From Cellulomonas timonensis (GTDB taxonomy: Bacteria; Actinomycetota; Actinomycetes; Actinomycetales; Cellulomonadaceae), in contig NZ_FCOT01000013.1 in the NCBI RefSeq assembly GCF_900046455.1, positions 558,001 through 622,000 of the forward strand: a DNA stretch of 64,000 nucleotides, in the 5' to 3' direction. The notes below the pieces were generated by a model. That model saw only the letters and a list, made by a program, of their open reading frames with translations. It made no database searches and was not told the origin of the DNA. This document shows, in pieces, positions 19,149 through 62,021 of this stretch. Numbering within the stretch: the stretch's first letter is position 1; every line of letters starts with the position of its first letter. The translations under genes and the position numbers were made by a program.

Positions 19149-19162
19149 TGATACCGGTGTCA
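19149..19162. promoter_or_regulatory. LacI operator O1 (TGATACCGGTGTCA)
   Basis: One of four related 14-mers around the lacI-like gene and the ABC importer. It has the central CG and the TGA-AC/GTGTCA half-sites, with one mismatch (T for C at position 4). Its centre is 127 bp upstream of the centre of O2, a distance that allows DNA looping. Confidence 0.7.
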
Positions 19163-19275: not shown

Positions 19276-19289
19276 GGACACCGATGTCA
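19276..19289. promoter_or_regulatory. LacI operator O2 (GGACACCGATGTCA) overlapping the start codon
   Basis: It has the same design as O1, O3 and O4. The ATG of the regulator lies inside the operator, and AGGAGG is directly upstream, so bound repressor would cover the promoter-proximal transcribed region. This indicates autoregulation. Confidence 0.72.
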
Positions 19290-20532: not shown

Positions 20533-20546
20533 TGACACCGCTGTCA
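20533..20546. promoter_or_regulatory. LacI operator O3 (TGACACCGCTGTCA)
   Basis: It matches the consensus TGACACCGNTGTCA. Its centre is 112 bp upstream of O4, so both operators could be held by one tetrameric repressor across the promoter. Confidence 0.75.
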
Positions 20547-20644: not shown

Positions 20645-20658
20645 TGACACCGTTGTCA
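20645..20658. promoter_or_regulatory. LacI operator O4 (TGACACCGTTGTCA)
   Basis: It matches the consensus in full and lies right after the predicted +1 of the importer promoter, the classical repression position. Confidence 0.78.
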
Positions 20659-20778: not shown

Positions 20779-21702
20779 ATGGTCGGCTATCTCGTCAGGC
20801 GGCTGTTCTTAGCCGTCTTCGTGTTGTGGGGCGTCGCCACGGTGGTCTTCCTCATCGTCCGGGTCGTCCCCGCCGACCCGGCGCTGCTCATCGCCGGCTC
20901 GGACGCGCCAGCTGAGCAGCTGGCCCAGATCCGTCAGGACCTCGGCCTCGACCAGTCGCTGCTCGTGCAGTACGGCAGGTTCCTGGGCGGCGCCGTCACC
21001 GGCGACCTCGGCCAGTCGTACTCCATGAAGCAGCCGGCGGTGAGCCTCATCGGGCAGGTGCTGCCGAACACCGCGCTGCTCGCGGTCCTGGCCTGTGCGG
21101 TGGCCCTGCTGCTCGCGTTCCCGCTGGGCCTGATCGCGGCGCTCCGCGCGAACCGCGCCGTCGATCGCGTGGTGACCACGGGCTCGCTCTTCACCCAGGC
21201 GCTGCCGAACTTCTGGATCGGCGTGGTGCTGCTGCTGGTGTTCTCCCGGACGCTCAAGTGGCTGCCCAGCGTCGGGCTCGACGGGCCGAAGAGCTTGATC
21301 CTGCCGACGATCGTGCTGGCCCTGCCGTTCGTCTCAGTCCTCACCCGGATGATCCGCAACGGCCTGCTCGAGGTGATGGGCGAGAGCTACATCCAGACCG
21401 CACGCGCCAAGGGCCTGCCGGAGCGGATCGTGATCTTCCGGCACGCCGTCCGCAACGCCGCGATCCCCGTCATCACGATCGTCGGCCTCCAGTTCGGCAC
21501 CCTGCTCGGCGGAGCAGTCGTCACCGAGTCGGTGTTCTCGTTCCCGGGCATCGGCCGGCTCCTCGTGACGTCCATCCAGCTGCGTGACTACAACGTCGTG
21601 CAGGCCTGCGTCCTGGTGATCGCCGCCGTCTTCGTCATCATCAACCTCGTCGTGGACCTGATGTACGGGTTCCTCGACCCTCGAGTGAGGCTCGCCAAGT
21701 GA
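20779..21702 (+). CDS. ABC transporter permease, DppB/OppB type
   Basis: First membrane subunit of a peptide/nickel/opine-class (family 5) importer. The product has 307 residues and starts MVGYLVRRLFLAVFVLWGVA, the usual first helix. The EAA loop, which contacts the ATPases, reads YIQTARAKGLPERIVIFRHA, and FSFPGIGRLLVTSIQLRDY is the family C-terminal block. A strong GGAGGAG site precedes the ATG. It is the first gene of a five-gene transporter operon under the four-operator LacI control. In such sugar contexts family-5 importers often carry oligosaccharides or glycosides rather than peptides. Confidence 0.93.
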   Translation: MVGYLVRRLFLAVFVLWGVATVVFLIVRVVPADPALLIAGSDAPAEQLAQIRQDLGLDQSLLVQYGRFLGGAVTGDLGQSYSMKQPAVSLIGQVLPNTALLAVLACAVALLLAFPLGLIAALRANRAVDRVVTTGSLFTQALPNFWIGVVLLLVFSRTLKWLPSVGLDGPKSLILPTIVLALPFVSVLTRMIRNGLLEVMGESYIQTARAKGLPERIVIFRHAVRNAAIPVITIVGLQFGTLLGGAVVTESVFSFPGIGRLLVTSIQLRDYNVVQACVLVIAAVFVIINLVVDLMYGFLDPRVRLAK

Positions 21703-22592
21703 CCGCCGCCGCACCTGTCCTCGCCGTCAACGCGACGATGCGCCGGGCCCGTCGGGCCCGGCGGGGCGTCAAGACCCGGATCATCGCGCCGCTCGTCGTG
21801 ATCGGCCTGATCATCGTCGGCGCCATCGCGGTGCCGATCGCCTTCGCCTTCGACCCCTTGCAGGCGGACCTTCTGGCGCGTCTGGCGCCACCCGGGGCCG
21901 TGATGTCGGACGGCAGCACCGCCCTGCTCGGCACCGACCAGATCGGGTCAGACCTGTTCGCGCAGATCATGGCCGGAGCCCGCGTCTCGCTCCTCGTCGG
22001 CGTCGCGACGCTCGCCATCTCGGGCCTGGTCGGCGTCGCCCTGGGGCTGCTCGCCGGCCACTTCGGCGGATGGATCGACGCGACGCTGATGCGAGTCGCC
22101 GACATCCAGCTGGCGTTCCCGTCCATCCTGCTCGCGATCCTCATCGCCTCGGTGCTCGGCCAGGGCGTCGGGAACATCATCATCGTCCTGTCGATCTCCA
22201 ACTGGGTCGTTTTCGCCCGGGTGGCCCGCAGCCAGGTTCTCTCGCTGAAGAACCGCGAGTACGTCGAGGCGGCGCGCACCCTCGGCGCCGGCAATTGGCA
22301 CCTGATGTTCCGCACGTTGCTGCCGGGGTGCATGGCGCCCGTGATCGTCGTGGCGACCACCCAGTTCGCCCAAGTGATCCTCACGGAGGCGTCCCTGTCG
22401 TTCCTCGGCGTCGGCGTCCCGCTCGGCACCCCGAGCCTGGGCAGCACGATCTTCAACGGCACGCAGTACCTCTCCACCGCCTGGTGGATCTCCACCCTCC
22501 CCGGCGTCGTGCTCGTGATCCTCATGCTGGCCTTCGGGATCCTCGGCGATGCCCTCCGCGACAAGTACGACCCGACGCTCCGGAGCGCATGA
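21699..22592 (+). CDS. ABC transporter permease, DppC/OppC type
   Basis: Second membrane subunit of the same importer, 297 residues. It has the DppC-type N-terminal helix after an Arg-rich tail (ARRGVKTRIIAPLVVIGLII), the sequence LLGTDQIGSDLFAQIMAGARVSL characteristic of the family, and the EAA loop YVEAARTLGAGNWHLMFRTL. The GTG start overlaps the stop of the first permease gene (GTGA), and the end overlaps the ATPase start (ATGA). Confidence 0.93.
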   Translation: MTAAAPVLAVNATMRRARRARRGVKTRIIAPLVVIGLIIVGAIAVPIAFAFDPLQADLLARLAPPGAVMSDGSTALLGTDQIGSDLFAQIMAGARVSLLVGVATLAISGLVGVALGLLAGHFGGWIDATLMRVADIQLAFPSILLAILIASVLGQGVGNIIIVLSISNWVVFARVARSQVLSLKNREYVEAARTLGAGNWHLMFRTLLPGCMAPVIVVATTQFAQVILTEASLSFLGVGVPLGTPSLGSTIFNGTQYLSTAWWISTLPGVVLVILMLAFGILGDALRDKYDPTLRSA

Positions 22593-23632
22593 TGACGACC
22601 ACACAGACAGGCCCCCTCAACCCCAGCACGTCCATGAGCGGCGCCCCGCTACTGAGCGTCCAGGACCTGACGGTCGAGTTCTCCACCGCCGCGGGCGTGG
22701 CCCGCGCCCTGGACGGGGTCAGCTTCGAGGTCAGCGCGGGGGAGACCCTCGCCATCCTCGGCGAGTCCGGCAGCGGCAAGTCGACGACCGCGCAGGCGAT
22801 CATGGCGCTGCTGCCCAAGCCGGCCGGCGCGATCACCGGCGGGAAGATCCTCTACGCCGGACGCGACCTCGCCGCCGAGCCGGCGTCCAAGGTGCGCGAG
22901 GTGTGCGGCACCGAGATCGCGATGATCTTCCAGGACCCGCTGTCCTCGCTGAACCCGGTGTTCCGGGTCGGCGCCCAGGTGGCTGAGCCCTTCCGCCGGC
23001 GTCGCGGCATGGGTCGCCGTGATGCCTGGGCGCGGGCGCTCGACCTGCTCAAGCGCGTGGGCATCCCAGACGCGGAGACGCGGATCAACGACTACCCGCA
23101 CCAGTTCTCCGGCGGGCAGCGGCAGCGGATCATGATCGCGATGGCGCTCGCGCTCGACCCGAAGGTGCTCATCGCCGACGAGCCGACCACAGCCCTGGAC
23201 GTCACCGTGCAGAAGCAGGTGATGAACCTCCTGGCGGACCTGCAGGCCGAGACCGGGATGGCGATGGTCCTCATCAGCCACGACCTCGGCGTGGTCGCGG
23301 AGGTCGCCAAGCGCGCCGCCATCATGTACGCCGGCCGGATCGTCGAGACCGGCCCGATCCGGGACATGTACGACCACCCGGCGCACCCGTACACGAGCGG
23401 CCTGCTGGATTCGATCCCGAGCCAGAGCAGCGTCGGCGGGCGGTTGAAGCCCATCGTCGGCTCGCCGCCGAACCTGCTGAACCTGCCGAGCGGCTGCGCC
23501 TTCAACCCGCGCTGCCCGTTCGCGATCGACCGGTGCCGGGAGCTGGCGCCCACGCTGCGCACGCCGGAGGGGTGGTCGGAAGGCCACCAGGCAGCGTGCC
23601 ACCTGTCCGAGGAGATGCTCGCCCATGTCTAG
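22589..23632 (+). CDS. ABC transporter ATP-binding protein, DppD/OppD type
   Basis: First ATPase of the importer, 347 residues. Walker A is [14 protein letters not shown], the ABC signature is [20 protein letters not shown] and Walker B follows as VLIADEPTTALDV. The C-terminal oligopeptide-type extension carries a cysteine cluster (NLPSGCAFNPRCPF ... DRCRE) that in homologues binds an iron-sulfur or metal centre. The first of two adjacent ATGs lies in an ATGA overlap with the permease. The end overlaps the second ATPase by 8 bp. Confidence 0.93.
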   Translation: MMTTTQTGPLNPSTSMSGAPLLSVQDLTVEFSTAAGVARALDGVSFEVSAGETLAILGESGSGKSTTAQAIMALLPKPAGAITGGKILYAGRDLAAEPASKVREVCGTEIAMIFQDPLSSLNPVFRVGAQVAEPFRRRRGMGRRDAWARALDLLKRVGIPDAETRINDYPHQFSGGQRQRIMIAMALALDPKVLIADEPTTALDVTVQKQVMNLLADLQAETGMAMVLISHDLGVVAEVAKRAAIMYAGRIVETGPIRDMYDHPAHPYTSGLLDSIPSQSSVGGRLKPIVGSPPNLLNLPSGCAFNPRCPFAIDRCRELAPTLRTPEGWSEGHQAACHLSEEMLAHV

Positions 23633-24452
23633 CGCCGGGACCACGCCCCTGTTGAGGGTCACGAACCTGAAGGTCGCCTACCCCATCCGCTCGTCGCTGC
23701 TGCAGCGGAAGATCGGGGAGAACGTCGCCGTCGACGACGTGACGTTCGACATCAACCCGGGGGAGACGGTCGGCCTCGTCGGCGAGTCGGGCTCCGGCAA
23801 GTCGACAGTCGCGCGCGCCGTGATCGGGCTGGTGAAGAGCGACGGCGGCCGGATCGAGTTCGAGGGGAATGACATCACCCGTCACTCCCCGCGGCAGCTC
23901 AAGCCCGTGCGCCGGGAGATGCAGATGGTCTTCCAAGACCCGTACGCGTCGCTCAACCCGCGGCTGACGGTCCGGGACCTGATCGCCGAGGCCTGGCGCG
24001 TGCACAGCGACGTCGTGCCGCGCGACCGGTGGACGGCCGAGGTCAAGGAGCTGATGGAGCGCGTCGGACTCAACCCCGACTACTCCGACCGCTACCCCCA
24101 CCAGTTCTCCGGCGGGCAGCGCCAGCGCATCGGGATCGCCCGGGCGCTCGCGCTGCGACCGAAGCTGATCATCTGCGACGAGCCCGTCTCCGCACTCGAC
24201 GTGTCGGTCCAGGCGCAGGTCCTCAACCTGCTCGACGACCTGCAGGACGACCTCGGCCTCGCTTACCTGTTCATCTCGCACGACCTGTCGGTCGTCGAGC
24301 ACCTGTGCGACCGGGTGCTGGTCCTGCACCACGGCGTCGTCGCCGAGGAGGGCTCCGCGCGAGAGGTCTTCGACCACCCGCGCGACGACTACACCCGCGC
24401 GCTGCTAGCCGCCGTGCCCGTGGCCCGCCCCTGGCTGGAGCCCTCGTCCTGA
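23625..24452 (+). CDS. ABC transporter ATP-binding protein, DppF/OppF type
   Basis: Second ATPase of the importer, 275 residues. Walker A is [16 protein letters not shown], the signature is [18 protein letters not shown] and Walker B ends in [14 protein letters not shown]. The N-terminus ([21 protein letters not shown]) is the OppF-type insertion before Walker A. It lacks the long C-terminal extension and cysteine cluster of most OppF proteins, so it is slightly short. It pairs with the preceding ATPase; the binding protein gene follows after 95 bp. Confidence 0.92.
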
Positions 24453-24547
24453 AGCAGTGCCCGAGTTCGAGCGAGCTGTGAGGGACGGCTTCACCAACGC
24501 ACTTTCAACGCATGTCAACAGATGTCACAGAGTCAAAGGAGATGGGA

Positions 24548-26107
24548 ATGACATCCTTCCGCAGAGGGTGGGGCTCAGTCGCAGGCGTTGCGGCCGTCCT
24601 CGCCCTGGTTCTCACGGGGTGCGGCACGGACGGCTCCGGGAGCACTGGCGATGCCAGTGGCCCCGGCGCCGTCGGCGCGGCGCTGCCCGATGACCAGCAG
24701 CACCTCACGTATGTCCTGAACTATGGCTGCACCTCCCTGGACCCCACGGAGAACTTCGACAACTGCCGCATGCAGGTCGACAGCAACGTCCTGCAGGGCC
24801 TGGTGTCGCTGGACAGCGACTCCCAGCCGCAGCCGTTGCTCGCGAGCTCCTGGGAGTGGACCGACGACACGACGCTCGTCTTCACGCTCCGCGATGACGT
24901 GACATTCAGCGACGGCACGCCCTTCACCTCGGCGGATGTCGCGGCCTCCTTCGACCGCTACATCGCGATGCAGTCGGTGCTCGCGACCCAGCTGGCGGTC
25001 ATCGAGTCCTACACCGCCGATGACCCGACCACCTTCACGATCAAGACGAAGAACCCGACGGGGACCCTGATCGGCGTGCTGTCGATGATCTTCATCGGCC
25101 AGGCGGACAACGCCGCCGACGACGCCTACTGGGCCAAGCCGATCGGCACCGGTCCGTTCGCAGTCACCGAGTTCGTGACGAACTCCCACGTCACCCTCAC
25201 CCGGAACGACACCTACTGGGGTGAGCCGGCGAAGCTGCAGACGGTGACGTTCAAGCAGATCACCGACACGAACGGCAAGGTCACGGCGCTCGCCAACGGC
25301 GAGGCCCACGTGATCGCGGGCGTGCCGAGCGACCAGATCTCGACCGTCCAGAACCTGTCGGGCGTCTCGCTCGAGCAGATCCCCAGCTTCACCTACACGT
25401 TCCTGTGGTTCCAGAACAGCCGCGAGCCGTTCACGGACCCGAAGGTGCGCGAAGCCATGTGGGCGGCCCTCGACCTCGACACGATCGTCACGTCGCTGCT
25501 GGGCGAAACGGCCGAGACGATGACCTCGCTCTGCCCTGAGGCGGCCTTCGGGTGCCTCCCGGCGACAGGCGCGCCCTCATATGACCCGGAGCGCGCCAAG
25601 ACCCTGCTCGCTGAGGCTGGCTACGCCAAGGGCTTCACCACCACGATCGACTACAGCACGGCCAACCCGGGCTACGACCAGATCGTGTCCGCGATGGTCT
25701 CGTACTGGAAGGCCGTCGGCATCACCGTGGAGCCGAAGTCCGACGACCAGGCGACCTTCCTGGCCGCCATCGCCAAGCCGGGCAACTACGACATGATCGT
25801 CAACTCGAACCTGACGAGCACCGGTGACGCCGACTTCACACTCAACCGCCTGTACACCTGCGCCGCAGACCGTCTCGGCTACTGCAACGAGGACCTCGAC
25901 GGCCTCCTGGCCCAGGCTCAGCAGACGGTCGACGCGACCGAGCGCTTGGCCGTCTACCAGGAGATCTCCGACCTCCTGGCAACCGACGTCCCCGCCATCG
26001 GGCTGTTCCAGCAGAACACCAACCTGGCGTTTGCCAACACCGTGCAGGGCCTCACGCTCATCCCCAGTGAGAACTACGACTGGAGCACGGTCTACCTGAC
26101 CGAGTAG
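24548..26107 (+). CDS. Extracellular solute-binding lipoprotein, family 5
   Basis: Substrate-capture protein of the importer. The 519-residue precursor begins TSFRRGWGS, then a hydrophobic core and the lipobox LTGC, which puts the lipid-modified cysteine at residue 25; a Gly/Ser linker follows. The SBP_bac_5 signature region includes LLASSWEWTDDTTLVFTLRD and FTSADVAASFDRY. I chose the ATG with AAAGGAG six bases upstream over two earlier in-frame ATGs. Mature protein would hold oligomeric sugar or peptide ligands; WFQNSREPFTDPKVREAM is family-typical. It is the last importer gene, followed by a stem-loop. Confidence 0.94.
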   Translation: MTSFRRGWGSVAGVAAVLALVLTGCGTDGSGSTGDASGPGAVGAALPDDQQHLTYVLNYGCTSLDPTENFDNCRMQVDSNVLQGLVSLDSDSQPQPLLASSWEWTDDTTLVFTLRDDVTFSDGTPFTSADVAASFDRYIAMQSVLATQLAVIESYTADDPTTFTIKTKNPTGTLIGVLSMIFIGQADNAADDAYWAKPIGTGPFAVTEFVTNSHVTLTRNDTYWGEPAKLQTVTFKQITDTNGKVTALANGEAHVIAGVPSDQISTVQNLSGVSLEQIPSFTYTFLWFQNSREPFTDPKVREAMWAALDLDTIVTSLLGETAETMTSLCPEAAFGCLPATGAPSYDPERAKTLLAEAGYAKGFTTTIDYSTANPGYDQIVSAMVSYWKAVGITVEPKSDDQATFLAAIAKPGNYDMIVNSNLTSTGDADFTLNRLYTCAADRLGYCNEDLDGLLAQAQQTVDATERLAVYQEISDLLATDVPAIGLFQQNTNLAFANTVQGLTLIPSENYDWSTVYLTE

Positions 26108-26159: not shown

Positions 26160-26211
26160 GGACCGGACGCAGGCAGTGCATCCCCGCTGGTCGAGCAAAG
26201 GAAGTCGCAGC

Positions 26212-27576
26212 GTGTTCGTGTCAGAACCCGGCCGTCAGGCGCCGGTGGTAGGAAGCTACGACGTCATCGTGTGCGGTGGCGGTCCGGCCGGCCTCGTCGC
26301 GGCGACAGCCGCTGCCCGGAACGGGGCCAGAACACTGCTCATCGAGCGGTACGGGTTCGTCGGCGGCATGGCGACGAGCGCCCTGGTCACCCCGATCAGC
26401 GAGTTCCGCCACTACGGCAAGCAGCACATCGGGGGGATCCCCTTCGAGCTGATGGTCGCGGCGGCCGAGCTAGGCGGCGCCGAGGTCTCCCGCGAGAGCG
26501 GGAACTACCCGGTGAACGACGAGATCCTCAAGTTGGCCGCGCAGCGCATGCTGCTCGACAGCGGCGTGACGCTCCTCTACCACTCGTGGTTCTCCGACTG
26601 CGTGACACAGGACGGCAAGGTGACGCACGTCATCGTGCAGAACAAGGCGGGCCGTGTCGCGTACGAGGGCAAGGTCTTCATCGACTGCACCGGCGACGCC
26701 GACCTGGTGCGCGCGGCGGGCTACGAGACGGTCAAGGGCGATGTGCTGCAGCCGGCGTCGCTCTGGTTCCAGTTGGGCGGGGTGGACACCGACGCGTTGG
26801 AGTACCTGTTCGGTGACGCGGTCGACGCGATGCTGCCGGTCTCCGCGGTGATCCGAGACCGGCTCACCGAGCTCCATGGGCAGGGCGTCATCCCGATCTT
26901 CGGGGGCCCGTGGATCAACAGGTTCTTCCATGACGGCATGGTCAGCATCAACCTGCTGCGCGAGGCGACGGACGCGAGCGACCCCGAGTGGTTCACCCGC
27001 ACCGAGTGCAGCATGCGCGAGACCCTGCACCTGATCATCGAGGTGCTGCGAGAGAACTTCCCCGAGTTCAAGGACTGCTGGCTCGCGAAGTCCGGCATCC
27101 AGACCGGGGTGCGCGAGACGTACCACATCGTCGGCGAGTACACGCTGGTGAAGGACGACATCGTGACGCCGAAGGCGTTCCCGGACACGATCGCCAAGGG
27201 CGCCCACGTCATCGACATCCACGCCACCGACAGCACCGAGCAGAACGACATGGTGATCCCGCGGCAGGAGTACAACGTGCCGCTCCGGTGCCTGGTGCCG
27301 CGGGGGAGCGTCAACCTCGTGACGGCAGGGCGATGCCTGAGCGCCGACGGCCCGGGCTTCGGCTCGGTACGCGTCATGGCGACGTGCATGGCCATGGGCC
27401 AGGGCGCGGGAACTGCCGCGGCACTGAGCGTGCGGCACGGCTACAGCATGTCCGCGATGGACGACGCGCTGCTGCGGGAGACGCTCGTCGCGCAGGGAGC
27501 CATCGTCGATTTCGACAACACAGTCAACCCCGGGCAGCCCGTCGCGGTGACGGTCTACCCGGGCGTGCAGAACTAG
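26212..27576 (+). CDS. FAD-dependent oxidoreductase (FAD_oxidored-type)
   Basis: The dinucleotide-binding motif VIVCGGGPAGLVAATAAARNG is followed by LLIERYGFVGGMATSALVTP, a pattern typical of the FAD-dependent oxidoreductases often found in polysaccharide and sugar loci. The GDADLVRAAG block in the middle and GRCLSADGPGFGSVRVMATC near the end complete the FAD site. The product has 454 residues. I chose the GTG with AAAGGAAG seven bases upstream; an earlier ATG has no ribosome-binding site. No signal peptide, so it acts in the cytosol. It lies between the importer and the A1-B1 pair and may oxidise the imported compound; its substrate is unknown. Confidence 0.88.
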   Translation: MFVSEPGRQAPVVGSYDVIVCGGGPAGLVAATAAARNGARTLLIERYGFVGGMATSALVTPISEFRHYGKQHIGGIPFELMVAAAELGGAEVSRESGNYPVNDEILKLAAQRMLLDSGVTLLYHSWFSDCVTQDGKVTHVIVQNKAGRVAYEGKVFIDCTGDADLVRAAGYETVKGDVLQPASLWFQLGGVDTDALEYLFGDAVDAMLPVSAVIRDRLTELHGQGVIPIFGGPWINRFFHDGMVSINLLREATDASDPEWFTRTECSMRETLHLIIEVLRENFPEFKDCWLAKSGIQTGVRETYHIVGEYTLVKDDIVTPKAFPDTIAKGAHVIDIHATDSTEQNDMVIPRQEYNVPLRCLVPRGSVNLVTAGRCLSADGPGFGSVRVMATCMAMGQGAGTAAALSVRHGYSMSAMDDALLRETLVAQGAIVDFDNTVNPGQPVAVTVYPGVQN

Positions 27577-27593: not shown

Positions 27594-28523
27594 ATGCAGA
27601 AGTTCCTCAGCTACGACCGCGGCCTCGAGCGGTTCAACCCGCTCGCCCGGGTCATCTGCTACGACGACTTCGACACGGGGTTCAACGGCTGGCTCGACCT
27701 CACGCCGAACTACGTCGAGGAGAACTACGAGTCCTTCGACAGCGTCGTCGACCTGTCGAGCTGGGCGCCGAACCAGCTGAGCTCCGCCTCGATGCGCTTC
27801 GCGTCGTCGCACGGCTCGATGGAGGGCACCTACTCGCTGAAGGTCACGACGGCGCCGACGGGCGGCCCGCACACCGAGCCGCCGCGCAACGGGTCCATGG
27901 GGCACGCGATCAAGCGGCTGTCGCGGTTCGGCAACCCCAAGCTCATCCAGATCGAGGCCTGGTATTCCTACACCCCGGTGCAGGACCGCGAGGGCAAGGG
28001 CGAGGAGGACATCCGCGCGATCGGGTTCTTCTTCGACGTGCAGGACTCCGAGTACCGCTACATGCCGGGCGTGCGCTACGTGAACTCCCTGGGCGGCAAG
28101 CTCGTCAAGAAGTGGCAGTACTACCAGGTCGCCGAGGGGGTCACCCCCGAGGACTGGAACTTCGGCGTCAAGGACGGCTGGTGCGTCCCAGGCGTCGACA
28201 ACCAGTGGTACGGCCGGCGGTTCGAGGACGGCTCGGGCGACGGCTACCAGTGGCTGCCGGGCGGTGAGCAGGACCTCGTCTACAACGAGAGCCCCGACAA
28301 GATCAACTGGATGTACCTGCGCCTGACGGTCGACATCGAGAAGCGCGAGTACGTCGAGCTGCAGAGCGGCGACCAGGTCTTCGACATGCGGGGCATCAAG
28401 CCGACCCTCACGGAGGGCTACGCCTCGATCGACAACCTCATCAACCCCATCTTCTTCATCGAGACCGACTCCGAGCGCTCCGTGAACCTCTACCTCGACT
28501 CCGTCGTGTACTCGGTCGAGTGA
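27594..28523 (+). CDS. Unknown protein A1 (DUF6772-like), paralogue of A2
   Basis: A 309-residue protein with no signal peptide or membrane span. It looks rich in beta strands. Conserved blocks shared with A2 at 33953-34894 are YDDFD-GFNGWLDLTPN, HGSMEG-YSLK, EAWYSYTP-QDR, GEEDIRA, LVYNESPDK-NW, FDMRG, NLINP-FFIETD and YLDSVVYS; about half of the positions look identical. The many Trp, Tyr and acidic residues resemble jelly-roll carbohydrate-binding or lyase folds. I recall similar proteins as DUF6772, unverified. AAGGAGAG lies upstream. B1 follows after 35 bp, the same order as A2-B2. Role unknown; sugar modification or recognition in the cytosol is inferred from context. Confidence 0.8.
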   Translation: MQKFLSYDRGLERFNPLARVICYDDFDTGFNGWLDLTPNYVEENYESFDSVVDLSSWAPNQLSSASMRFASSHGSMEGTYSLKVTTAPTGGPHTEPPRNGSMGHAIKRLSRFGNPKLIQIEAWYSYTPVQDREGKGEEDIRAIGFFFDVQDSEYRYMPGVRYVNSLGGKLVKKWQYYQVAEGVTPEDWNFGVKDGWCVPGVDNQWYGRRFEDGSGDGYQWLPGGEQDLVYNESPDKINWMYLRLTVDIEKREYVELQSGDQVFDMRGIKPTLTEGYASIDNLINPIFFIETDSERSVNLYLDSVVYSVE

Positions 28524-28558
28524 CGACGCACCCCTGACGACACCTGAGAGACGAAGAC

Positions 28559-28882
28559 ATGCAGACAACGAACACCTCCGTCATCGCACGACGGGTCAAG
28601 ATCTCCGACGACTACGCGACCCTTCCCTACGAGGCCGGCTGGGCGAGCGAGGCGGTGACCTTCATTCAGGCCGAGGGCGACCACCCCGACCTGGCCATCG
28701 CGGTCGAGGTCTCGCCCGACGGCATCAACTGGGTCCGACGCACCGGCGCGACGCTGTCCGCCTCGCAGCAGATCGTCGACCTGCCGCTGGCGCAGTTCGG
28801 CAACTGGCTCCGGGTCGTCATCACCGGCGCGACGAGCGAGCAGCCCGCGCGGGTGCTCGTCCACCTCAACCTCAAGGGCTGA
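28559..28882 (+). CDS. Unknown small protein B1, paralogue of B2
   Basis: A 107-residue protein without signal peptide, predicted from its alternating hydrophobic pattern to be mostly beta strand. It shares with B2 (33614-33940) the blocks PYEA-WASEA, EG-HP-LAI, VSPDG--W, FG-W-R and a C-terminal L-LKG. The central SPDGINW resembles the repeats of small beta-sandwich modules. It follows A1 and precedes a sugar dehydrogenase by 6 bp, so it is in the operon. Because A and B genes are retained together twice, I infer the two proteins form one complex or enzyme. Confidence 0.78.
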   Translation: MQTTNTSVIARRVKISDDYATLPYEAGWASEAVTFIQAEGDHPDLAIAVEVSPDGINWVRRTGATLSASQQIVDLPLAQFGNWLRVVITGATSEQPARVLVHLNLKG

Positions 28883-28888
28883 GCGGCC

Positions 28889-30355
28889 ATGGAACGTCTG
28901 GGAGCCCGGGCGCTCGGCTCCCTTCCGCCCGCGGTGGAGGTTCCGGGCTATCTCGACGAGGACTTGCGGATCGGGATCGTGCACTTCGGGGTGGGGAACT
29001 TCCACCGCTCGCACCAGGCGATGTACGTCGAGCGGCTGCTCAATGCCGGGACCGCCCGCGACTGGGCGATCTGCGGGGTCGGGCTGCTGGACCGCGACGC
29101 CCGGATGCGTGACGCGCTCGCCGCGCAGGACGGCCTCTACACGCTGACGCTGCGCGAGCCGGATGGCTCCAACCGGTTCAGTGTCATCGGGGCGATCCGG
29201 CGCTTCATCTACGCGCCCGACGACCCGGCGGCCCTGCTTGAGCAGCTCGCGTCACCGGACGTGCGCATCGTGTCGTTGACGGTCACCGAGGGCGGCTATG
29301 TCAGCGACCCGACGACGGGGCGGTCGCCCCAGGACGACCCCCTGGTGATCGAGGAGGTCGCGGGCGGGCTCGCGCAGCCCCGCACGGCGTTCGGGTGGAT
29401 CGTCGCAGCGCTGCGCGAGCGCCGGCGACGGGGCACCGCCCCGTTCACGGTGATGTCCTGCGACAACATCCAGGGCAACGGCCGCGTCGCGCGGCTGAGC
29501 GTCGAGGGCGTGGCACGTCTCGTGGACGCGGAGCTGGCCGACTGGATCGCCGCCGAGGTGTCGTTCCCGTCCACGATGGTGGACAGGATCACACCGGTGA
29601 CGACGCAGGCGGACATCGACCGCATCGCGACCGAGCTGGGCGTCGAGGACGCCTGGCCGGTGTCGAGCGAGCCGTTCACGCAGTGGGTGATCGAGGACGT
29701 GTTCGCCCACGGGCGGCCGCCTTTCGAGCAGGCGGGCGCCGTGCTGGTCTCCGACATCGACCCCTACGAGGCGATCAAGCTCCGGCTGCTCAACGCGTCG
29801 CACCAGGCGCTCGCGTACATCGGGCAGCTGCTCGGCTACGAGTACGTCCACGAGGCTGTGGCGGACCCGCGCATCGCCGGGTTCGTGCGGGCCTACATGG
29901 AGCAAGAGGCAGTCCCGACGCTCGTGGTGCCCGAGGGCTTCGAGATGGAGGCGTACATCGACGAGCTGTTCGTGCGTTTCGGGAACCCCCATGTGCAGGA
30001 CTTCCTCGCGCGGCTGTCCGTCGACTCGTCGAACCGGATTCCGAAGTTCCTGGTCCCCGTGCTCGCCGATGCCGTGGCGGCGGGCGCGGCGAGCGGGGTC
30101 GGCGCGTCGATCATCGCCACGTGGCGCGCATGGTGCCGCGGCGTCGGTGCGGGGCAGTTCGCTATCGACGACGTGGACGGGGAGGTGCTGGTCTCGGCCG
30201 CCGCGCAGGAGCCCCTCGGCTTCCTCCGGGGCGTCCCGACGCTCACCCCGTTCCTGGACTCGCCCGGCTTTGTCGACGCGTATGCGCGCGCCGCCAACGC
30301 GCTGGAGCAGGAGGGTCCCGGGGCTTTCCTCGGAGCCGTCCTGGTGCAGGAGTAG
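28889..30355 (+). CDS. Mannitol dehydrogenase family oxidoreductase
   Basis: Long-chain polyol/hexonate NAD(P)-dependent dehydrogenase (mannitol, arabinitol, fructuronate or tagaturonate type), 488 residues. The nucleotide-binding start is IGIVHFGVGNFHRSHQAMYV; SCDNIQGNGR and the catalytic block KLRLLNASHQALAY (Lys, Asn and His in K-x4-N-x2-H) are intact. Cytosolic. It interconverts a keto sugar (for example fructose or fructuronate) and a polyol or aldonate; the exact pair cannot be read by eye. It follows B1 and precedes a PfkB kinase, which suggests the product is phosphorylated next. Confidence 0.9.
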   Translation: MERLGARALGSLPPAVEVPGYLDEDLRIGIVHFGVGNFHRSHQAMYVERLLNAGTARDWAICGVGLLDRDARMRDALAAQDGLYTLTLREPDGSNRFSVIGAIRRFIYAPDDPAALLEQLASPDVRIVSLTVTEGGYVSDPTTGRSPQDDPLVIEEVAGGLAQPRTAFGWIVAALRERRRRGTAPFTVMSCDNIQGNGRVARLSVEGVARLVDAELADWIAAEVSFPSTMVDRITPVTTQADIDRIATELGVEDAWPVSSEPFTQWVIEDVFAHGRPPFEQAGAVLVSDIDPYEAIKLRLLNASHQALAYIGQLLGYEYVHEAVADPRIAGFVRAYMEQEAVPTLVVPEGFEMEAYIDELFVRFGNPHVQDFLARLSVDSSNRIPKFLVPVLADAVAAGAASGVGASIIATWRAWCRGVGAGQFAIDDVDGEVLVSAAAQEPLGFLRGVPTLTPFLDSPGFVDAYARAANALEQEGPGAFLGAVLVQE

Positions 30356-30359
30356 GGCG

Positions 30360-31310
30360 ATGGTCAGCGGCAGAGACGCGAGGATCCCCGGGCTGGCGCA
30401 GGCCGTCTTCGTGGTCGGCGAGGCGCTCGTCGACGTGACCGTCGACGCTGACGGCGTCGAGCGTCGACAGCCGGGCGGCAGCCCGATGAACGTCGCCTTC
30501 GGGCTGGCGCGGCTGGGCGTGCCCGCGCGGCTGTTGAGCTCCATCGGCGACGGCCTCGACGGCCAGCGCATCGCCGCGCACCTGCGGTCGGCCGGGGTCA
30601 AGCTCGACGACGTGTCGGTGGAGCCCGGAGCGGTGACGTCCACGGCCTCCGCGACGCTGGACGCAGAGGGCATCGCGTCGTATTCGTTCGATCTGCGGTG
30701 GGACCTTCCCACCGGCGGCAGCGTGCCGACCGAGTGCGGTGTGATCCACACGGGGTCGATCGGAGCGGTGCTCGCGCCAGGCGCCGATCGCGTGCTGGAG
30801 CTCTTCAGGTCGGCGTGCGCCGATGTGATCCGCTCGTTCGACCCCAACGTCCGCGCGGCCATCACTCCGGATCGCGTGGCGGTGCTGGAGCGCGTCGAGC
30901 AGTTCGTCAGCATCACCGACGTGCTCAAGCTCAGCGACGAGGACGCGCAATGGCTCCACCCCGGCAAGGACGAGGAGTTCGTCGCGGACTGGGCTCTCGG
31001 CCTGGGAGTCAAGCTCGTCGTCATGACGCGGGGCGCGCGGGGGTGCACCGTCTCCACCCCGTCGCACCGGATCACGCAGGACGCCATCCCCACCCAGGTG
31101 GTGGACACCATCGGGGCAGGCGACGCGTTCATGTCGGGGCTCTTGGCCGGGCTGTCCCGGTGGGGCTTGTTCGACGCGCTGCGTGGCGACGGCGTCAGCG
31201 TCGGCGACCTCAGCAGGCTCGCCGAGCTCGCCACGCGAGTCGCGTCGCTGACGGTCGCGCAGGCAGGCGCGCAGCCGCCGACCTGGGCTGAGGTCCGCTC
31301 GGCTGCCTGA
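30360..31310 (+). CDS. PfkB-family carbohydrate kinase
   Basis: Ribokinase-fold sugar kinase of 316 residues. The substrate motif near the N-terminus is GGSPMNVAFGLARLG and the anion hole with catalytic base is DTIGAGDAFMSGLLAG. VVGEALVDV is the first strand. Fructokinase or 2-keto-3-deoxygluconate kinase activity would both fit the preceding dehydrogenase. ATG lies 4 bp after that gene's stop. A convergent terminator separates it from the AraC gene. Confidence 0.88.
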   Translation: MVSGRDARIPGLAQAVFVVGEALVDVTVDADGVERRQPGGSPMNVAFGLARLGVPARLLSSIGDGLDGQRIAAHLRSAGVKLDDVSVEPGAVTSTASATLDAEGIASYSFDLRWDLPTGGSVPTECGVIHTGSIGAVLAPGADRVLELFRSACADVIRSFDPNVRAAITPDRVAVLERVEQFVSITDVLKLSDEDAQWLHPGKDEEFVADWALGLGVKLVVMTRGARGCTVSTPSHRITQDAIPTQVVDTIGAGDAFMSGLLAGLSRWGLFDALRGDGVSVGDLSRLAELATRVASLTVAQAGAQPPTWAEVRSAA

Positions 31311-31317
31311 GCACGCG

Positions 31318-31357
31318 CACGACGCCGCGTCGTCCCCGAGGGCGGTGCGGCGTCGTG
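31318..31357. terminator. Stem-loop between convergent PfkB and AraC genes
   Basis: Arms CACGACGCCGC (31318-31328) and GCGGCGTCGTG (31347-31357) are perfect complements around an 18-base loop. Placed between convergent stops, it can end transcription from both sides. No strong T-run on either strand. Confidence 0.6.
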
Positions 31358-31369
31358 CTGTCGTGGCGC

Positions 31370-32284
31370 CTACGCGCGGGCCGACGCGCGGTGCTGGCGG
31401 GGCGTGACGCCGTACGCCTGGAGGAACTGCCGGTTGAAGTTCGACAGGTTGCTGTACCCGACGGCTCCCGCGATCGCGGCGACTGTGTCGTCGGTCCGCT
31501 CGAGCAGCCGGCAAGCCTGGGTGAGCCGCAGCTGACGGACCATGTCGGTGAACGTCTGACCGCTGCCCGCCTTGAAATAGCGAGAGAACGCGGACTCGCT
31601 CATCGCGGCCCGCCTCGCGGCCTCGTGCAGGCTCACTCCGCTGGTGAGGTTGTCGAGGATGTAGTCGATCGCGCGGCTGATGAGCTCCGAGTCGGCTCCT
31701 CCCAGGGGCGGCAGCCAGCCGCGGACGACAGGCTTCTGCTCGCCCGCCGGGCCTGCGGCGAGGATGCGGAGCATGTCGAGCACGCGCACGACGCGTTCCA
31801 TTCCAGGATCGGCGTCGCGGACCGCCAGGAGGGCTGTGGCTCCACGCGCGGCCGTGTCGCCCTGGAACTCGATGCCGTGCGCGGATCGGCTGAGCAGCGA
31901 GTCGAGTGTCCGCAGCTCGGGCATGGCGGCCTGGCATCCCCGGATCCACGTGTCGCTGAAATGCAGCACGGCGTGCGTGTCGTCCAGCACCTCGTTCTCG
32001 CCGTGGTCGGCGATCCAGTGGTGCGGCAGGTTCGGGCCGACGAGCACGAGCTGCCCGGGGTGGTAAGCGTCGACGACGTCGCCGAGGACGTAACGACCAC
32101 TCGACCGCAGGATGAGGTGGAGCTCGTACTCGGGGTGGAAGTGCCAGCCCGCGAAGGGGTGCGGGTCTTCGTGGACATAGAAGCGGAACGACGCGACGGG
32201 GTCGCCAGCGATCACCTCGCGCACAGCCCTGCGGCGCAGCGTTCCCACGGCGCGTGACTCGAGGGCCGTTGCGGTGGCATTCAT
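31370..32284 (-). CDS. AraC-family transcriptional regulator
   Basis: An N-terminal cupin sensor (FRFYVHEDPHPFAGWHFHPEYE, GRYVLGDVVDAYHPGQLVLV) is followed by a double helix-turn-helix AraC domain, with VSLHEAARRAAMSESAFSRY in the first and AIAGAVGYSNLSNFNRQFLQ in the second, ending TPRQHRASARA. The product has 304 residues from the ATG of MNATATALESRA; an upstream ATG adds 17 non-conserved residues. Divergent from the zinc dehydrogenase gene, which it may activate; a sugar is the likely ligand. The cupin His residues (HFHPEYE) are typical of sugar-sensing AraC proteins. Confidence 0.9.
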   Translation of the reverse strand: MNATATALESRAVGTLRRRAVREVIAGDPVASFRFYVHEDPHPFAGWHFHPEYELHLILRSSGRYVLGDVVDAYHPGQLVLVGPNLPHHWIADHGENEVLDDTHAVLHFSDTWIRGCQAAMPELRTLDSLLSRSAHGIEFQGDTAARGATALLAVRDADPGMERVVRVLDMLRILAAGPAGEQKPVVRGWLPPLGGADSELISRAIDYILDNLTSGVSLHEAARRAAMSESAFSRYFKAGSGQTFTDMVRQLRLTQACRLLERTDDTVAAIAGAVGYSNLSNFNRQFLQAYGVTPRQHRASARA

Positions 32285-32357
32285 GGTGCGATTCTTCACT
32301 GATGCCGTCTCGCCAGCAGCGACGACTGGCCGCAACGGCGCAAGAGAGTATCGGAAG

Positions 32358-32380
32358 CGCGCATCGTGGAGCGATGCGCG
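32358..32380. promoter_or_regulatory. Inverted repeat in the AraC/dehydrogenase intergenic region
   Basis: CGCGCATCG and CGATGCGCG flank TGGAG. It lies in the 181-bp divergent gap and could be a regulator site or part of an mRNA leader. Which protein binds it is unknown; AraC proteins usually prefer direct repeats. Confidence 0.35.
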
Positions 32381-32465
32381 GTAGCGCCCACGCAGCCACG
32401 ATGTGAGGACAGGCCCTCAGAGATGTGGGCGGGTCGTGTCACAGCGAGAACAGGTTGGGTGAGAT

Positions 32466-33511
32466 ATGAGCGCGACGATGCGCCAGGTGCTGGTCGCACG
32501 GTTGAACGAGGTCACGGTGATCGACTCCGCGATCCCCGAGCCGGGCCCGGGCGAGGTGCGGGTGGCGGTCGCGCTCGCGGGCATCTGCGGCTCCGACACC
32601 CACGCGGTCGCGGGGCACCACCCGCTGCTGGGCCCGCCGTACCTGCCGGGCCACGAGCTCGTCGGGAGGGTCGAGGAGGCCGGCGCCGGCGCGGACGCCT
32701 CGCTCGTCGGCAGTCGCGTGGTCGTCAAGCCCAACGTCGACTGCGGGGAGTGCGTCAACTGCCGTGCCGGGCGCAGCAACGCCTGCCAGGAGCTCCAGTG
32801 GATCGGCTGCGACCCCTCGGGCGCCCTGCCCGGCGGGATGGCCCAGTATGTGGTGGTCCCGGAGCGCAACGTCTTCCCGGTGCCGGACGAGGTCTCTGAC
32901 GTGGACGCCGTGCTCGTCGAGTGCCTCGCGACGCCCGTCCACGCCGCGCGCATTGCGGGCGACCTCACCGGCGCGAAGGTCGTCGTGATCGGCGCGGGAC
33001 CATCGGGCTCTTCTCGGTCATCGCGGCGCGTCGTGCTGGCGCGGGCGTGATCGTCGTCTCTGACCCCGTGCCCGCCAAGCGCGACCGCGCGTTGGGCCTC
33101 GGCGCGGACGCGTCCGTCGACGCGGCGGCGCCCGACTTCACCGCAGCGGTGCACGAGGCGCTCGGCGGGCTGGCAGATGTCGTCTTCGACTGCGTCGGCA
33201 TCGAGGCGTCGATCCGGCAGTCGGTCGAGGTGCTGCGGCGCGCGGGCACGCTGCTCATCGTCGGCGTGCCGCCGCGGGACGGCGTCGTGCCGTTGCCACT
33301 CTTCCAGGACTGGGAGCTGCGGATCCAGGGGTGCGCCAACTACACGCCCGAGGACATCGAGACTGCTATCGCGATCGCCGTGGACGGCGGCCTGCCGGGC
33401 GATGACATGGTCAGCGCCACCTCCCCGGTCGAGGAGGCCGTGGCGGCCTTCGCGGCGGCTGCCCTCGGCCCCGCGGGCAGGGTCGTGATCGCGCCCGACC
33501 CCTCGTCCTGA
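32466..33511 (+). pseudogene. Zinc-dependent alcohol dehydrogenase, interrupted by a one-base frameshift
   Basis: Medium-chain dehydrogenase of the threonine/sorbitol type. Frame one gives the catalytic zinc region (AGICGSDTHAV, PGHELVGRVEEAG) and the structural-zinc loop CGECVNCRAGRSNAC, then reaches the Rossmann motif VVVIGAG and drifts into nonsense. Frame two continues from TIGLFSVIAARRAGA to the normal end (VVFDCVGIEASIRQSVEVL, VIAPDPSS). Inserting one base between 33001 and 33002 restores VIGAGPIGLFSVIAA. The full protein would have about 349 residues. It is either a sequencing error or a very recent inactivation, as all else is intact. Divergent from AraC. Confidence 0.88.
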
Positions 33512-33554
33512 CGCGGCCCGCCCGGGCGCCCGCCGCGCCCGGGGTGCTCACACG

Positions 33555-33592
33555 CGACAGGGCCGTCTCGTCCGGACGAGACGGCCCTGTCG
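33555..33592. terminator. 38-bp perfect palindrome, bidirectional terminator
   Basis: Two 19-base arms meet without a spacer. On RNA it would form a long GC-rich hairpin with a tight loop. It lies between the convergent dehydrogenase gene and B2, so termination from both sides is the likely role. Confidence 0.75.
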
Positions 33593-33613
33593 TCATGTGT
33601 GCGTGCTGGCGCG

Positions 33614-33940
33614 TCAGCCCTTGAGTTCTAGGCGGATCAGCACTGTCGCCGGCTCGTCCGGAGTGGCGCCCTCGAGGCGCAGGCGGATCCAGGTGCCGAA
33701 CCGCGCCATCTCGACGTCGATGAGGTCCTGGTCGGCCCGGAGCGTCACAGGGTCGCCGCGGTCGAGCCAGTCGACGCCGTCCGGCGACACCTGCGGCTGG
33801 ATGGCCAGCTGTGGGTGCGGTCCCTCCGTGCGGACGAAGAACAGCGCCTCGGACGCCCAGGCGGCCTCGTAGGGGTGGGTGCCGAACCCGGCGGTCAGGA
33901 CTGCTCGGCGCTCGACGAGCGTGGTGGCGGAAGTCAGCAT
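33614..33940 (-). CDS. Unknown small protein B2, paralogue of B1
   Basis: A 108-residue beta-rich protein similar to B1 throughout: PYEAAWASEALFFVRTEG, VSPDGVDWL, ARFGTWIRL and the terminal LELKG. No signal peptide or membrane span. GAGAGGAGATCACC precedes the ATG, a strong ribosome-binding site. It lies 12 bp after A2 on the same strand and is the last gene of its operon, ended by the 38-bp palindrome. Function unknown; retention with A2 in both copies indicates a joint role. Confidence 0.78.
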   Translation of the reverse strand: MLTSATTLVERRAVLTAGFGTHPYEAAWASEALFFVRTEGPHPQLAIQPQVSPDGVDWLDRGDPVTLRADQDLIDVEMARFGTWIRLRLEGATPDEPATVLIRLELKG

Positions 33941-33952
33941 GGTGATCTCCTC

Positions 33953-34894
33953 TCAGGCGTGGGGCGCGCGACCGGTCGAGTACACGACGGAGTCGAGGTA
34001 CATGAAGACGCGGCGGTCGGTGTCGGTCTCGATGAAGAAGACGGGGTTGATCAGGTTCGTGATGCCGTCGTACGGGGCCGCTGGCGTCGTCGGCACGCCG
34101 CGCATGTCGAAGGTGCGGCCCAGGCTCTGGAACTCGACGTACTCGCGCAGCTCGAGGTCGACGAGGAGCCGCATGTACAGCCAGTTGAGCTTGTCGGGGC
34201 TCTCGTTGTAGACCAGCTTCTGGTCGCCGTCGGGAACCCACCGGAACCCGTCCGCCGAGCCGTCCGGGTAGCGCCGGCCGCACCAGATGGCGTCGATTCC
34301 CGGGGCCTCCCACCCCTCGGGGCTGCCGGTCCACTGCTCACGGGTGACCTCGTCGGGGGTGTGGAAGTACTGCCACCGCTTGACCTTCGTCCCGTTGACG
34401 GAGTTGACGTAGCGGATGCCCGGCTGCCACCGGTGGCTCTCGTCCTGCACGTCGAACCACATCCCGAACGCGCGGATGTCCTCCTCGCCGGTTCCCCAGC
34501 GGTCCTGCTCGGGTGTGTAGGAGTACCAGGCCTCGAGCTGGATGTACCGATGGTCGTCGTCGGTCCGCGAGAGCCGCTTGATCACGGTGCTCATGGCGCC
34601 GTTGACCGGGGGCTGCTCGTACGGCCCGGCGCTCGGCCGGGTCGCGAGCTTGAGCGAGTAGTTGCCCTCCATCGAGCCGTGCCCGGCGGCGAACCGCATC
34701 GGGGCCGCGCTGATCATCGACGGCCCCCATGAGCCGAGGTCGAGCTGGGACGGCTGGGACTGGAATCCCTCGCGGACGAAGTTCGGCGTGAGGTCGAGCC
34801 AGCCGTTGAACCCGCGGTCGAAGTCGTCGTAGACCATGACCTTCTCCAGCGGCTTGAACTTCTCGAGTCCTCGTTCGTGGACGATGAGCGCCAT
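33953..34894 (-). CDS. Unknown protein A2 (DUF6772-like), paralogue of A1
   Basis: A 313-residue protein without signal peptide, co-linear with A1. Both start with a short motif (ERGLEKFKPLEKV here) followed by YDDFDRGFNGWLDLTPNFV, and end FFIETDTDRRVFMYLDSVVY. It is about half identical to A1 by eye, so the duplication is old or the copies came from different sources. GGAG lies nine bases before the ATG. It is transcribed from a strong promoter covered by an operator, divergent from the second LacI regulator. Function unknown; the match to DUF6772 is from memory. Confidence 0.8.
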   Translation of the reverse strand: MALIVHERGLEKFKPLEKVMVYDDFDRGFNGWLDLTPNFVREGFQSQPSQLDLGSWGPSMISAAPMRFAAGHGSMEGNYSLKLATRPSAGPYEQPPVNGAMSTVIKRLSRTDDDHRYIQLEAWYSYTPEQDRWGTGEEDIRAFGMWFDVQDESHRWQPGIRYVNSVNGTKVKRWQYFHTPDEVTREQWTGSPEGWEAPGIDAIWCGRRYPDGSADGFRWVPDGDQKLVYNESPDKLNWLYMRLLVDLELREYVEFQSLGRTFDMRGVPTTPAAPYDGITNLINPVFFIETDTDRRVFMYLDSVVYSTGRAPHA

Positions 34895-34916: not shown

Positions 34917-34930
34917 GTAAATGGATTTAC
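34917..34930. promoter_or_regulatory. Operator GTAAATGGATTTAC at the A2-B2 transcription start
   Basis: Perfect 6-bp arms around GG. It covers the expected +1 of the minus-strand A2 promoter and lies 71 bp before the second LacI regulator. Its length and symmetry fit a LacI-family site, different in sequence from O1-O4. Confidence 0.65.
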
Positions 34931-34935
34931 TTGTC

Positions 34936-34965
34936 AAAGTACAGAGAGCCCGACAACAGTGTCAA
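34936..34965 (-). promoter_or_regulatory. Sigma-70-type promoter of A2-B2
   Basis: On the minus strand TTGACA (34965-34960) is followed by 18 bases and TACTTT (34941-34936). The predicted start near 34929 is inside the operator. The -35 region also carries a GACA-N4-TGTC element (34952-34963) that resembles half of the O1-O4 design but has a different centre. Confidence 0.7.
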
Positions 34966-35000
34966 CCGCCGGGCCGCGGGCCTGGGGGAGCGGAGAGGCT

Positions 35001-36062
35001 ATGACGTCGGTGCAGGGCAAGGACGGAATCGGCGAGGGCCGGCGTCCCGCGCGGATCCGGGATGTGGCGGCCCGCGCGGGGGTGTCCCCGGGGCTCGTGT
35101 CGCGCCTGCTGAACAACGACCCGACCCTCACCGTGCGGCCGGAGACGCGCGCGCAGGTGATGGAGGCGGTGCTGGAGCTCGACTACGTGGCCAGCTCGGC
35201 AGCGGCATCGCTCCGGCGCAACCGGGCCGACGCGCTCGGGCTCGTGCTGGACCGCGTCACCAACCCCGTCTTCGCCGACGTGGTCCATGGTGCGGAGGAG
35301 GCCGCCACCGAGCTCGGCTGCGGGCTGCTCATCCTCGACGCGGAGGAGGTCGCCCGCGATCCGGCCTTTCTGACAGAGGTCGTCAAGTCGCGCCGGGTCG
35401 ACGGGCTCCTCCTCCAGGGCGGGTACGGCCCGGACGCCGGTCTCCTCGCGCGGTTCTCGGCCGAGATCCCCAGCGTCATCGTCAACAGCCCGGGGAACGA
35501 CGCCGCGTCCGGCGTCAGCCTGGAGGACGAGGCGGCGACAAGGCTCGCCACCAGCCACCTGATCCAGCTCGGCCACGGGGAGATCGCCTTCGTCGCCGGC
35601 GCGCCGGGCGTCGCGTCCGACACCCGCCAGCATGGCTTCACGGAGGCGCTCCGGGATGCCGGTCTGGAGGCCCGACCGGACAGGATCCTCGGGGGCGGGT
35701 GGCATGCGGAGGACGGCCTCCAGGCCGTCAGGGCGTCGCTCACGTCCTCGAGCCCGGTGACCGCCTACGTCGCCGCCTCGCCAGTCGTCGCGCTCGGCGT
35801 CGTGTCCGCGCTGGTCGAGGCGCACGTCCGGGTGCCCGAGGACGCGTCAGTCGTCGGGATCCACGACCCGTGGTTCGCCCCGTACCTGATCCCGGCGATG
35901 ACCACTGTCGCACTCCCGCTCTTCGAGCTCGGGCGGCGGTCGGTGCTGCAGCTGATGGCGCACCTGCAGTCCGGGAAGCCTCCGGAGGTCGTCATCACGG
36001 ACCCGGCGCCACGGCTCGTCGTCCGTGGCTCCACGGCTCCTCCGAGATCTGCTCGGGCGTGA
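35001..36062 (+). CDS. LacI-family transcriptional regulator (A2-B2 locus)
   Basis: Helix-turn-helix IRDVAARAGVSPGLVSRLLN (residues 19-38) with a full periplasmic-binding-like sensor domain (ALGLVLDRVTNPVFADVVHG, ELGCGLLILDAEE, DASVVGIHDPWFAPYLIPAM). The product has 353 residues from the ATG that follows GGGGGAGCGGAGAG; the frame is open upstream but those residues overlap A2 on the other strand. It is divergent from A2-B2, with the operator between them, so it most likely represses A2-B2 and itself. Effector unknown. Its sequence is clearly different from the first LacI protein. Confidence 0.92.
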   Translation: MTSVQGKDGIGEGRRPARIRDVAARAGVSPGLVSRLLNNDPTLTVRPETRAQVMEAVLELDYVASSAAASLRRNRADALGLVLDRVTNPVFADVVHGAEEAATELGCGLLILDAEEVARDPAFLTEVVKSRRVDGLLLQGGYGPDAGLLARFSAEIPSVIVNSPGNDAASGVSLEDEAATRLATSHLIQLGHGEIAFVAGAPGVASDTRQHGFTEALRDAGLEARPDRILGGGWHAEDGLQAVRASLTSSSPVTAYVAASPVVALGVVSALVEAHVRVPEDASVVGIHDPWFAPYLIPAMTTVALPLFELGRRSVLQLMAHLQSGKPPEVVITDPAPRLVVRGSTAPPRSARA

Positions 36063-61942: not shown

Positions 61943-62021
61943 CTCCGTTGCCGCCCACACACCTCCGCTAGTAGTGGGGCGATAAGCGCTCGTGCTCAGA
62001 GCCCAGCAATAACTAGTGATT

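Follow-up and report, generated by a model that had tools for sequence, protein, structure and literature searches.

The 64,000-nucleotide stretch of Cellulomonas timonensis DNA analysed here (hereafter, the window) holds a sugar locus spanning 19-36 kb, in which a two-gene unit encoding proteins of the Pfam families DUF6772 (protein A) and DUF6385 (protein B) occurs twice, as A1-B1 and A2-B2. The four genes of the two units are as follows:

27594..28523, plus strand: A1, DUF6772 (PF20562) protein of 309 residues; Pfam match at 311.5 bits; model with predicted local distance difference test score (pLDDT) 92.1; concanavalin A (ConA)-like jelly roll by model
28559..28882, plus strand: B1, DUF6385 (PF19912) protein of 107 residues; Pfam match at 29.8 bits, cut-off 26.8; model pLDDT 96.8; small jelly roll by model
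33953..34894, minus strand: A2, second DUF6772 protein, 313 residues; Pfam match; 59% identity with A1
33614..33940, minus strand: B2, second DUF6385 protein, 108 residues; Pfam match; 47% identity with B1

An earlier note, made from the sequence alone, had described a duplicated unit of common order and spacing class, and the description holds: all four genes are intact and A precedes B in both copies, with a gap of 35 base pairs (bp) in A1-B1 and 12 bp in A2-B2. The copies had been judged about half identical over their full length, in agreement with the values obtained for A1 and A2 (181 of 306 residues, 59%, E 2e-138) and for B1 and B2 (51 of 108, 47%, E 2e-38); judged from these alignments, the likeness is homology and not chance. 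Misreading of one gene as two was ruled out, A and B being separate frames, each with its own start. In the whole genome of 4.06 Mb there are two matches to A and two to B, all of them in the window.

Assignment to DUF6772 was strong for the two window A proteins (311.5 and 323.7 bits; curated cut-off 27), and the family was matched, at E up to 1, by 88/88 aligned A homologues. The window B proteins scored closer to the DUF6385 cut-off of 26.8 (29.8 and 31.7 bits), and 87/87 B homologues matched this family at E up to 1, several of them scoring under the curated cut-off. At that same threshold A matched only DUF6772 and B only DUF6385 in Pfam; NCBIfam gave no match to either, and beyond the two families only scattered weak chance matches were seen. 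Searches of the PDB by single sequence and by profile returned nothing convincing for A (best E 0.13 and 1.8) or for B (best E 0.74 and 0.017), and no paper naming either family, by name or Pfam accession, was found in the full-text collection searched. DUF6772 and DUF6385 are uncharacterised Pfam families that already carry numbers, and the profile search found no characterised family covering A or B, in keeping with the 'unknown function' of the earlier note. Separately, in the two genome samples described below, many B partners score low against the Pfam DUF6385 model or escape it.

A cytosolic location, claimed in the same note from the lack of a signal peptide, is consistent with a simple hydropathy measure, as distinct from a trained signal-peptide predictor: none of 95 A and 48 B gene models showed a hydrophobic N-terminus, and the highest 19-residue mean hydropathy within any A protein was 1.93. 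Only 48 B models entered this test because our home-made gene caller missed many B genes (and both A and B in locus L107).

Homologous loci were collected from a species-genome collection, where the best 80 of 244 confirmed matches yielded 77 loci, a choice by which the set leans towards the query. Over all loci there were 114 distinct A sequences; four fragments were excluded, and among the 110 full-length sequences 108 had a B on the same strand within 2.5 kb. B lay at most 120 bp downstream of A in 94 cases, farther downstream in eight (up to about 1.4 kb) and upstream in six. The two A copies without their own same-strand B are spirochaete copies (L066 and L070) on contigs carrying another B; one of these contigs (L070, 2056-12175) holds three divergent A genes and two B genes. 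In 394 genomes of the class to which the window organism belongs, the DUF6772 profile found A in 16 and the DUF6385 profile found B in 11, while in 191 Chloroflexota genomes the same profiles found A in 13 and B in six; over the two samples, every B place (22/22; 16 in the class, including the window's two, and six in Chloroflexota) adjoined an A place. Where Pfam missed B in the class loci, B was recovered, with no exception listed, by a custom profile that was seeded from the two window B proteins alone and refined through repeated searches of the loci's open frames, and this profile places B beside A almost everywhere among the loci. The possibility that A is commonly found without B, which would have spoken against a joint unit, is thus not what the survey shows.

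Full-length A carries about ten phylum labels (Actinomycetota, Pseudomonadota, Acidobacteriota, Chloroflexota, Bacteroidota, Spirochaetota, Deinococcota, Latescibacterota, Gemmatimonadota and Poribacteria), some of which may err, since several of the records are metagenome bins. In viral contigs, 31 pattern matches to A gave no confirmed case of phage carriage. The distance matrices of A and B (86 pairs) correlated at 0.81, against a maximum of 0.09 in 500 permutations, a value to which shared species history contributes. For this reason the correlation also fits the view that A and B travel together in sugar operons without forming a complex, as do the six upstream and eight distant B genes and the two A copies lacking a B of their own; nevertheless, pairing in 108/110 cases over about ten phyla, in loci otherwise widely different, makes this view very improbable. 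Taken together, these data strongly support A-B as a single unit, cytosolic and conserved, of carbohydrate loci.

Two complete pairs were present in 12 loci, the window among them. By our own reading of the tree and distances, in 23 of the 24 units the nearest outside B adjoins an A that shares its clade with the nearest outside A, the sole exception being the unit at 11249 of L070; therefore, partners stay together. The two A proteins are 59% identical in the window and 61% in Micromonospora rubida (L059), and the window A proteins, nearest in the tree to those of Actinomycetota, are each sister to their own counterpart in that species (both forks 100/98). A recent local duplication was dropped as an explanation, A1 and A2 grouping with different M. 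rubida copies, and the duplication of A looks older than the split between the two lineages, unless the whole locus was transferred. In the remaining ten loci the two A proteins share 30-35% identity. For nine of them, each actinobacterial, a single separate clade supplies the second A; two-pair loci thus come with more than one kind of second pair. Two long-branched clades of the A tree are possibly joined falsely.

Around the two units, the window locus contains the following genes:

19284..20330, plus strand: LacI-type regulator 1, 5' of the importer operon; PF00356, E 2.2e-16
20779..24452, plus strand: OppB, OppC and two ATPase genes of the importer, with which the A1-B1 operon begins; open frames and permease clusters, ATPases named by eye from sequence
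24512..26107, plus strand: family-5 solute-binding protein; shares a cluster with a scanned SBP_bac_5 protein
26176..27576, plus strand: FAD_oxidored (PF12831) flavoprotein, immediately 5' of A1; Pfam, only strong full-length match in the genome
28889..30355, plus strand: mannitol-dehydrogenase family oxidoreductase, first gene 3' of B1; Pfam, and mannitol dehydrogenase 1lj8 at E 2.6e-117
30372..31310, plus strand: PfkB-type sugar kinase; best NCBIfam model fructokinase, under its cut-off; start codon uncertain
35001..36062, plus strand: LacI-type regulator 2, divergent from A2-B2; Pfam match (scan began at 34998)

The order is thus LacI 1, Opp-type importer, family-5 solute-binding protein, FAD_oxidored, A1, B1, mannitol-dehydrogenase-family enzyme and PfkB kinase. 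After these come genes for an AraC regulator and a zinc dehydrogenase, and the locus closes with the minus-strand genes B2 and A2 and with LacI 2. A1-B1 had been placed after a flavin adenine dinucleotide (FAD) oxidoreductase and A2-B2 under a second LacI regulator, and both placements were confirmed, the flavoprotein ending 17 bp before A1 and the LacI gene being divergent from A2-B2. The mannitol-2-dehydrogenase-like gene followed by the PfkB kinase (28889-31310, plus strand) suggests release of a polyol or fructose unit in this locus. The zinc alcohol-dehydrogenase gene (32466-33511, plus strand) is split over the overlapping open frames 32466-33050 and 32921-33511, and therefore represents a frame-broken gene or a sequencing error. 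The guanine-cytosine content is about 0.67-0.75 over most of the window, and falls to 0.55 in 62001-64000.

Operator-like sites were identified beside both LacI genes and the importer operon:

19149..19162, plus strand: operator-like site TGATACCGGTGTCA, 5' of LacI 1; motif search
19276..19289, plus strand: operator-like site GGACACCGATGTCA, across the LacI 1 start; motif search
20533..20546, plus strand: operator-like palindrome TGACACCGCTGTCA, 5' of the importer operon; motif search
20645..20658, plus strand: operator-like palindrome TGACACCGTTGTCA, 5' of the importer operon; motif search
34917..34930, no strand assigned: second palindrome GTAAATGGATTTAC, just 5' of A2, single in the window; sequence
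34951..34964, minus strand: operator-like site TGACACTGTTGTCG, between A2 and LacI 2; motif search

Palindromes resembling TGACACYGYTGTCA gave eight strand matches at five places in the window (19149, 19276, 20533, 20645 and 34951), against an expected 0.75, an optimistic chance figure because the motif was chosen by eye after seeing the sequence. Their distribution suggests that both window pairs may be under one regulator or regulon, and the palindrome at 34917-34930 may be a site for LacI 2. In M. rubida, TGACACYGYTGTCA-like intergenic sites lie at 196, 309 and 11345, this third site standing between B2 and the LacI gene rather than in front of A2; among 82 other loci, any such intergenic site was present in only six.

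Neighbouring genes were scanned in 53 dereplicated loci, covering the nearest 141 of 245 neighbours (120-650 residues; 25 of 89 families listed). Transport and regulation were prominent, with 26 ATP-binding cassette (ABC) permeases, nine SBP_bac_1 and seven SBP_bac_5 proteins, seven major facilitator superfamily (MFS) transporters and 11 LacI-type sensor domains (eight with the LacI DNA-binding domain), and the enzymes included 11 FAD_oxidored, five of mandelate-racemase type, four short-chain dehydrogenases/reductases (SDR), three GFO_IDH_MocA and two mannitol dehydrogenases. A constant association of A-B with LacI regulators and family-5 importers, which the earlier note had proposed to check, was not supported, and a general link to family-5 importers was contradicted: in many loci transporters of the CUT1, MFS or SSF kinds, or FadR/GntR regulators, take their place. 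Within 7 kb of A-B in 83 loci, counts that are not independent because some loci are near duplicates (e.g., L076 and L077), FAD_oxidored occurred in 18, the mandelate-racemase type in 13, the mannitol-dehydrogenase type in 10, SDR in eight and the lactate-racemase family in six; other settings included pectate-lyase-like proteins (seven loci) and sulfatases (seven loci). Five of seven plasmid records were examined, and four annotated alphaproteobacterial plasmid stretches have a gene of mandelate-racemase type directly ahead of A and B or close to them, together with a CUT1 importer, SDR and FadR-type genes, no glycosidase being named among their listed products, in a gene table that is incomplete. 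There, A is annotated as 'DUF6772 family protein' in three stretches and as hypothetical in one, and B as hypothetical in all four. In Chitinophaga barathri (L065, 1824-17326), SusC-size frames, a SusD protein, BNR_2, a NanM-SSF fusion, A, B and a 3-keto-disaccharide hydrolase lie together. The Sphingomonas A-B locus (L045) encodes, at 12344-13597, a 418-residue protein with no Pfam match at 1e-6, flanked by genes for an MFS transporter and a transaldolase-family enzyme.

Such neighbours also fit another kind of cytosolic sugar enzyme, a mutarotase, epimerase, lactonase or isomerase acting on a free or oxidised monosaccharide and not on a glycosidic bond. Sugar-acid type genes (the mandelate racemase, SDR and lactate-racemase families counted above) and the NanM-like kelch/SSF protein before A in L065 favour this reading, whereas in three loci of Brachybacterium and Ruania (L048, L055 and L057), where A-B accompanies an importer, the genes scanned include no further recognised candidate for cleavage, and we regard it as rather unlikely. 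In these three loci the block consists of the importer, an esterase-like protein (one cluster member scanned), A, B and LacI; nine further flanking genes encode two phosphotriesterase-family proteins, an exporter, a GATase1-like protein, an AAA protein, a C69 peptidase, a laminin-G surface protein, a LytR-type protein and an aldo/keto reductase, with no recognised glycosidase in the part of the flanks scanned.

The A1 model is nearly all beta, a ConA-like jelly roll of the lectin/glucanase kind supported by fold match, and the B1 model is a small jelly roll supported by fold comparison (matches taken from VIA-align lists). A has a large set of near-invariant polar residues and B has invariant residues of its own. 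In the B fold comparison, XepA and YomS (6i56 and 6i5o), which are prophage proteins, share 9% and 6% identity, and we know of no sugar-locus link for them. On the A side, 1oq1, which we take to be Bacillus subtilis YesU of family DUF1961, has no B-like partner to our knowledge; kinship of A with DUF1961 was rejected (no Pfam match; hhalign probability 0.1 against six sequences). YesU has been reported as a glycan binder (PMC6120924), and lectin-like binding without catalysis is the strongest non-enzymatic rival: as a cytosolic sensor, carrier or chaperone, A-B would bind imported saccharides and assist the regulator or other enzymes. Many charged residues stay invariant down to about 30% identity, in our judgement more than a plain lectin seems to need, and regulators and importers vary among loci while A-B persists, so that we give this alternative a fairly low probability.

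Among systems already described, the nearest working analogy is that of the C-glycoside eliminases, namely PuCGE and the C-glycoside deglycosidases DgpBC and CarBC, presumably its relatives, although A-B fails the defining features tested. PuCGE, a heterodimer with an organisation like that proposed for A-B, pairs a large and a small subunit, the latter helping to form the substrate pocket, and acts after FAD-dependent sugar oxidation (PMC10628242). Its large subunit is a manganese triosephosphate isomerase (TIM) barrel and the oxidase is of the pyranose-oxidase family, whereas A is predicted to be nearly all beta, with DUF6772 as its only Pfam match and no metal-binding TIM barrel, and the window flavoprotein is FAD_oxidored; B, moreover, gives no match to the small-subunit family CGDB (PF19906) at E up to 1. 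The absence of CGDB from 148 genomes of the class sample shows little, because the control also matched nowhere. A second comparison is offered by the 3-keto-disaccharide hydrolases (PF06439, DUF1080), which have a ConA-like fold, and A-B would share with them the logic and, going by the A model, the fold, not the sequence. As described, they act on oxidised sugars beside a sugar dehydrogenase and are single-domain proteins, one with a putative signal peptide (PMC9007349).

From the observed genes, homology, pairing and neighbourhoods, and from the modelled folds, A-B is well supported as a two-protein cytosolic module for imported saccharides. Beyond this we infer, tentatively and at somewhat less than even probability, a complex, its catalysis, its reaction and its substrate: A-B would be an enzyme cleaving a glycosidic or comparable bond, at some loci once the sugar has undergone flavin oxidation. 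The importer would take up a glycoside or oligosaccharide, which the FAD_oxidored flavoprotein may oxidise in some loci; A would act as the catalytic or sugar-holding subunit and B, with its 107-residue jelly roll, as the partner completing or gating the site. The product would then be converted by A-B, most likely through cleavage of a glycosidic (or similar) bond, and the released unit would be used by the mannitol-dehydrogenase/kinase branch in the window, or by a mandelate-racemase-type/SDR branch elsewhere. The two window pairs, if regulated as one regulon, might act on related substrates or successive steps. Of the earlier proposal of an undescribed cytosolic carbohydrate-processing or -sensing module, the conserved cytosolic carbohydrate-locus unit stands, and processing over sensing is what we infer.

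Several points weigh against an enzyme of this kind. FAD_oxidored was not found within 7 kb in 65/83 loci, some of them on short contigs, and in a genome-wide search of 19 genomes the L045 genome has A-B and no strong match (best 2.1e-9). Several other genomes have many FAD_oxidored genes, which makes the link less telling there than in the window genome, where the next listed match after the A1 neighbour is partial (2.2e-9); the flavoprotein is thus a frequent and not a necessary partner. The lack of a recognised glycosidase refers to the 141 of 245 neighbours scanned, and one could lie elsewhere. A 3-keto-disaccharide hydrolase neighbours A-B in only 1/83 loci, and kinship of A with that family (PF06439) was rejected (no Pfam match; hhalign probability 0.2 against 11 sequences). 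In addition, proteins with ConA-like folds are very often lectins and nothing more.

In its widest form, which we consider unlikely, DUF6772-DUF6385 would constitute a new class of heteromeric ConA-fold glycoside-cleaving cytosolic enzyme, acting partly on flavin-oxidised sugars. It would be convergent with the C-glycoside eliminases and present in about ten phyla, and in some loci two divergent pairs would share out the substrates or steps between them. In brief, two numbered families, unstudied as far as the literature searched shows, turn out to be one genome unit, and A-B, at some loci along with a linked oxidoreductase, is a pair that can be tested for a sugar-processing step where no glycosidase was recognised among the genes scanned. 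As a true enzyme, A-B would be a new two-subunit kind built on a lectin-like fold.
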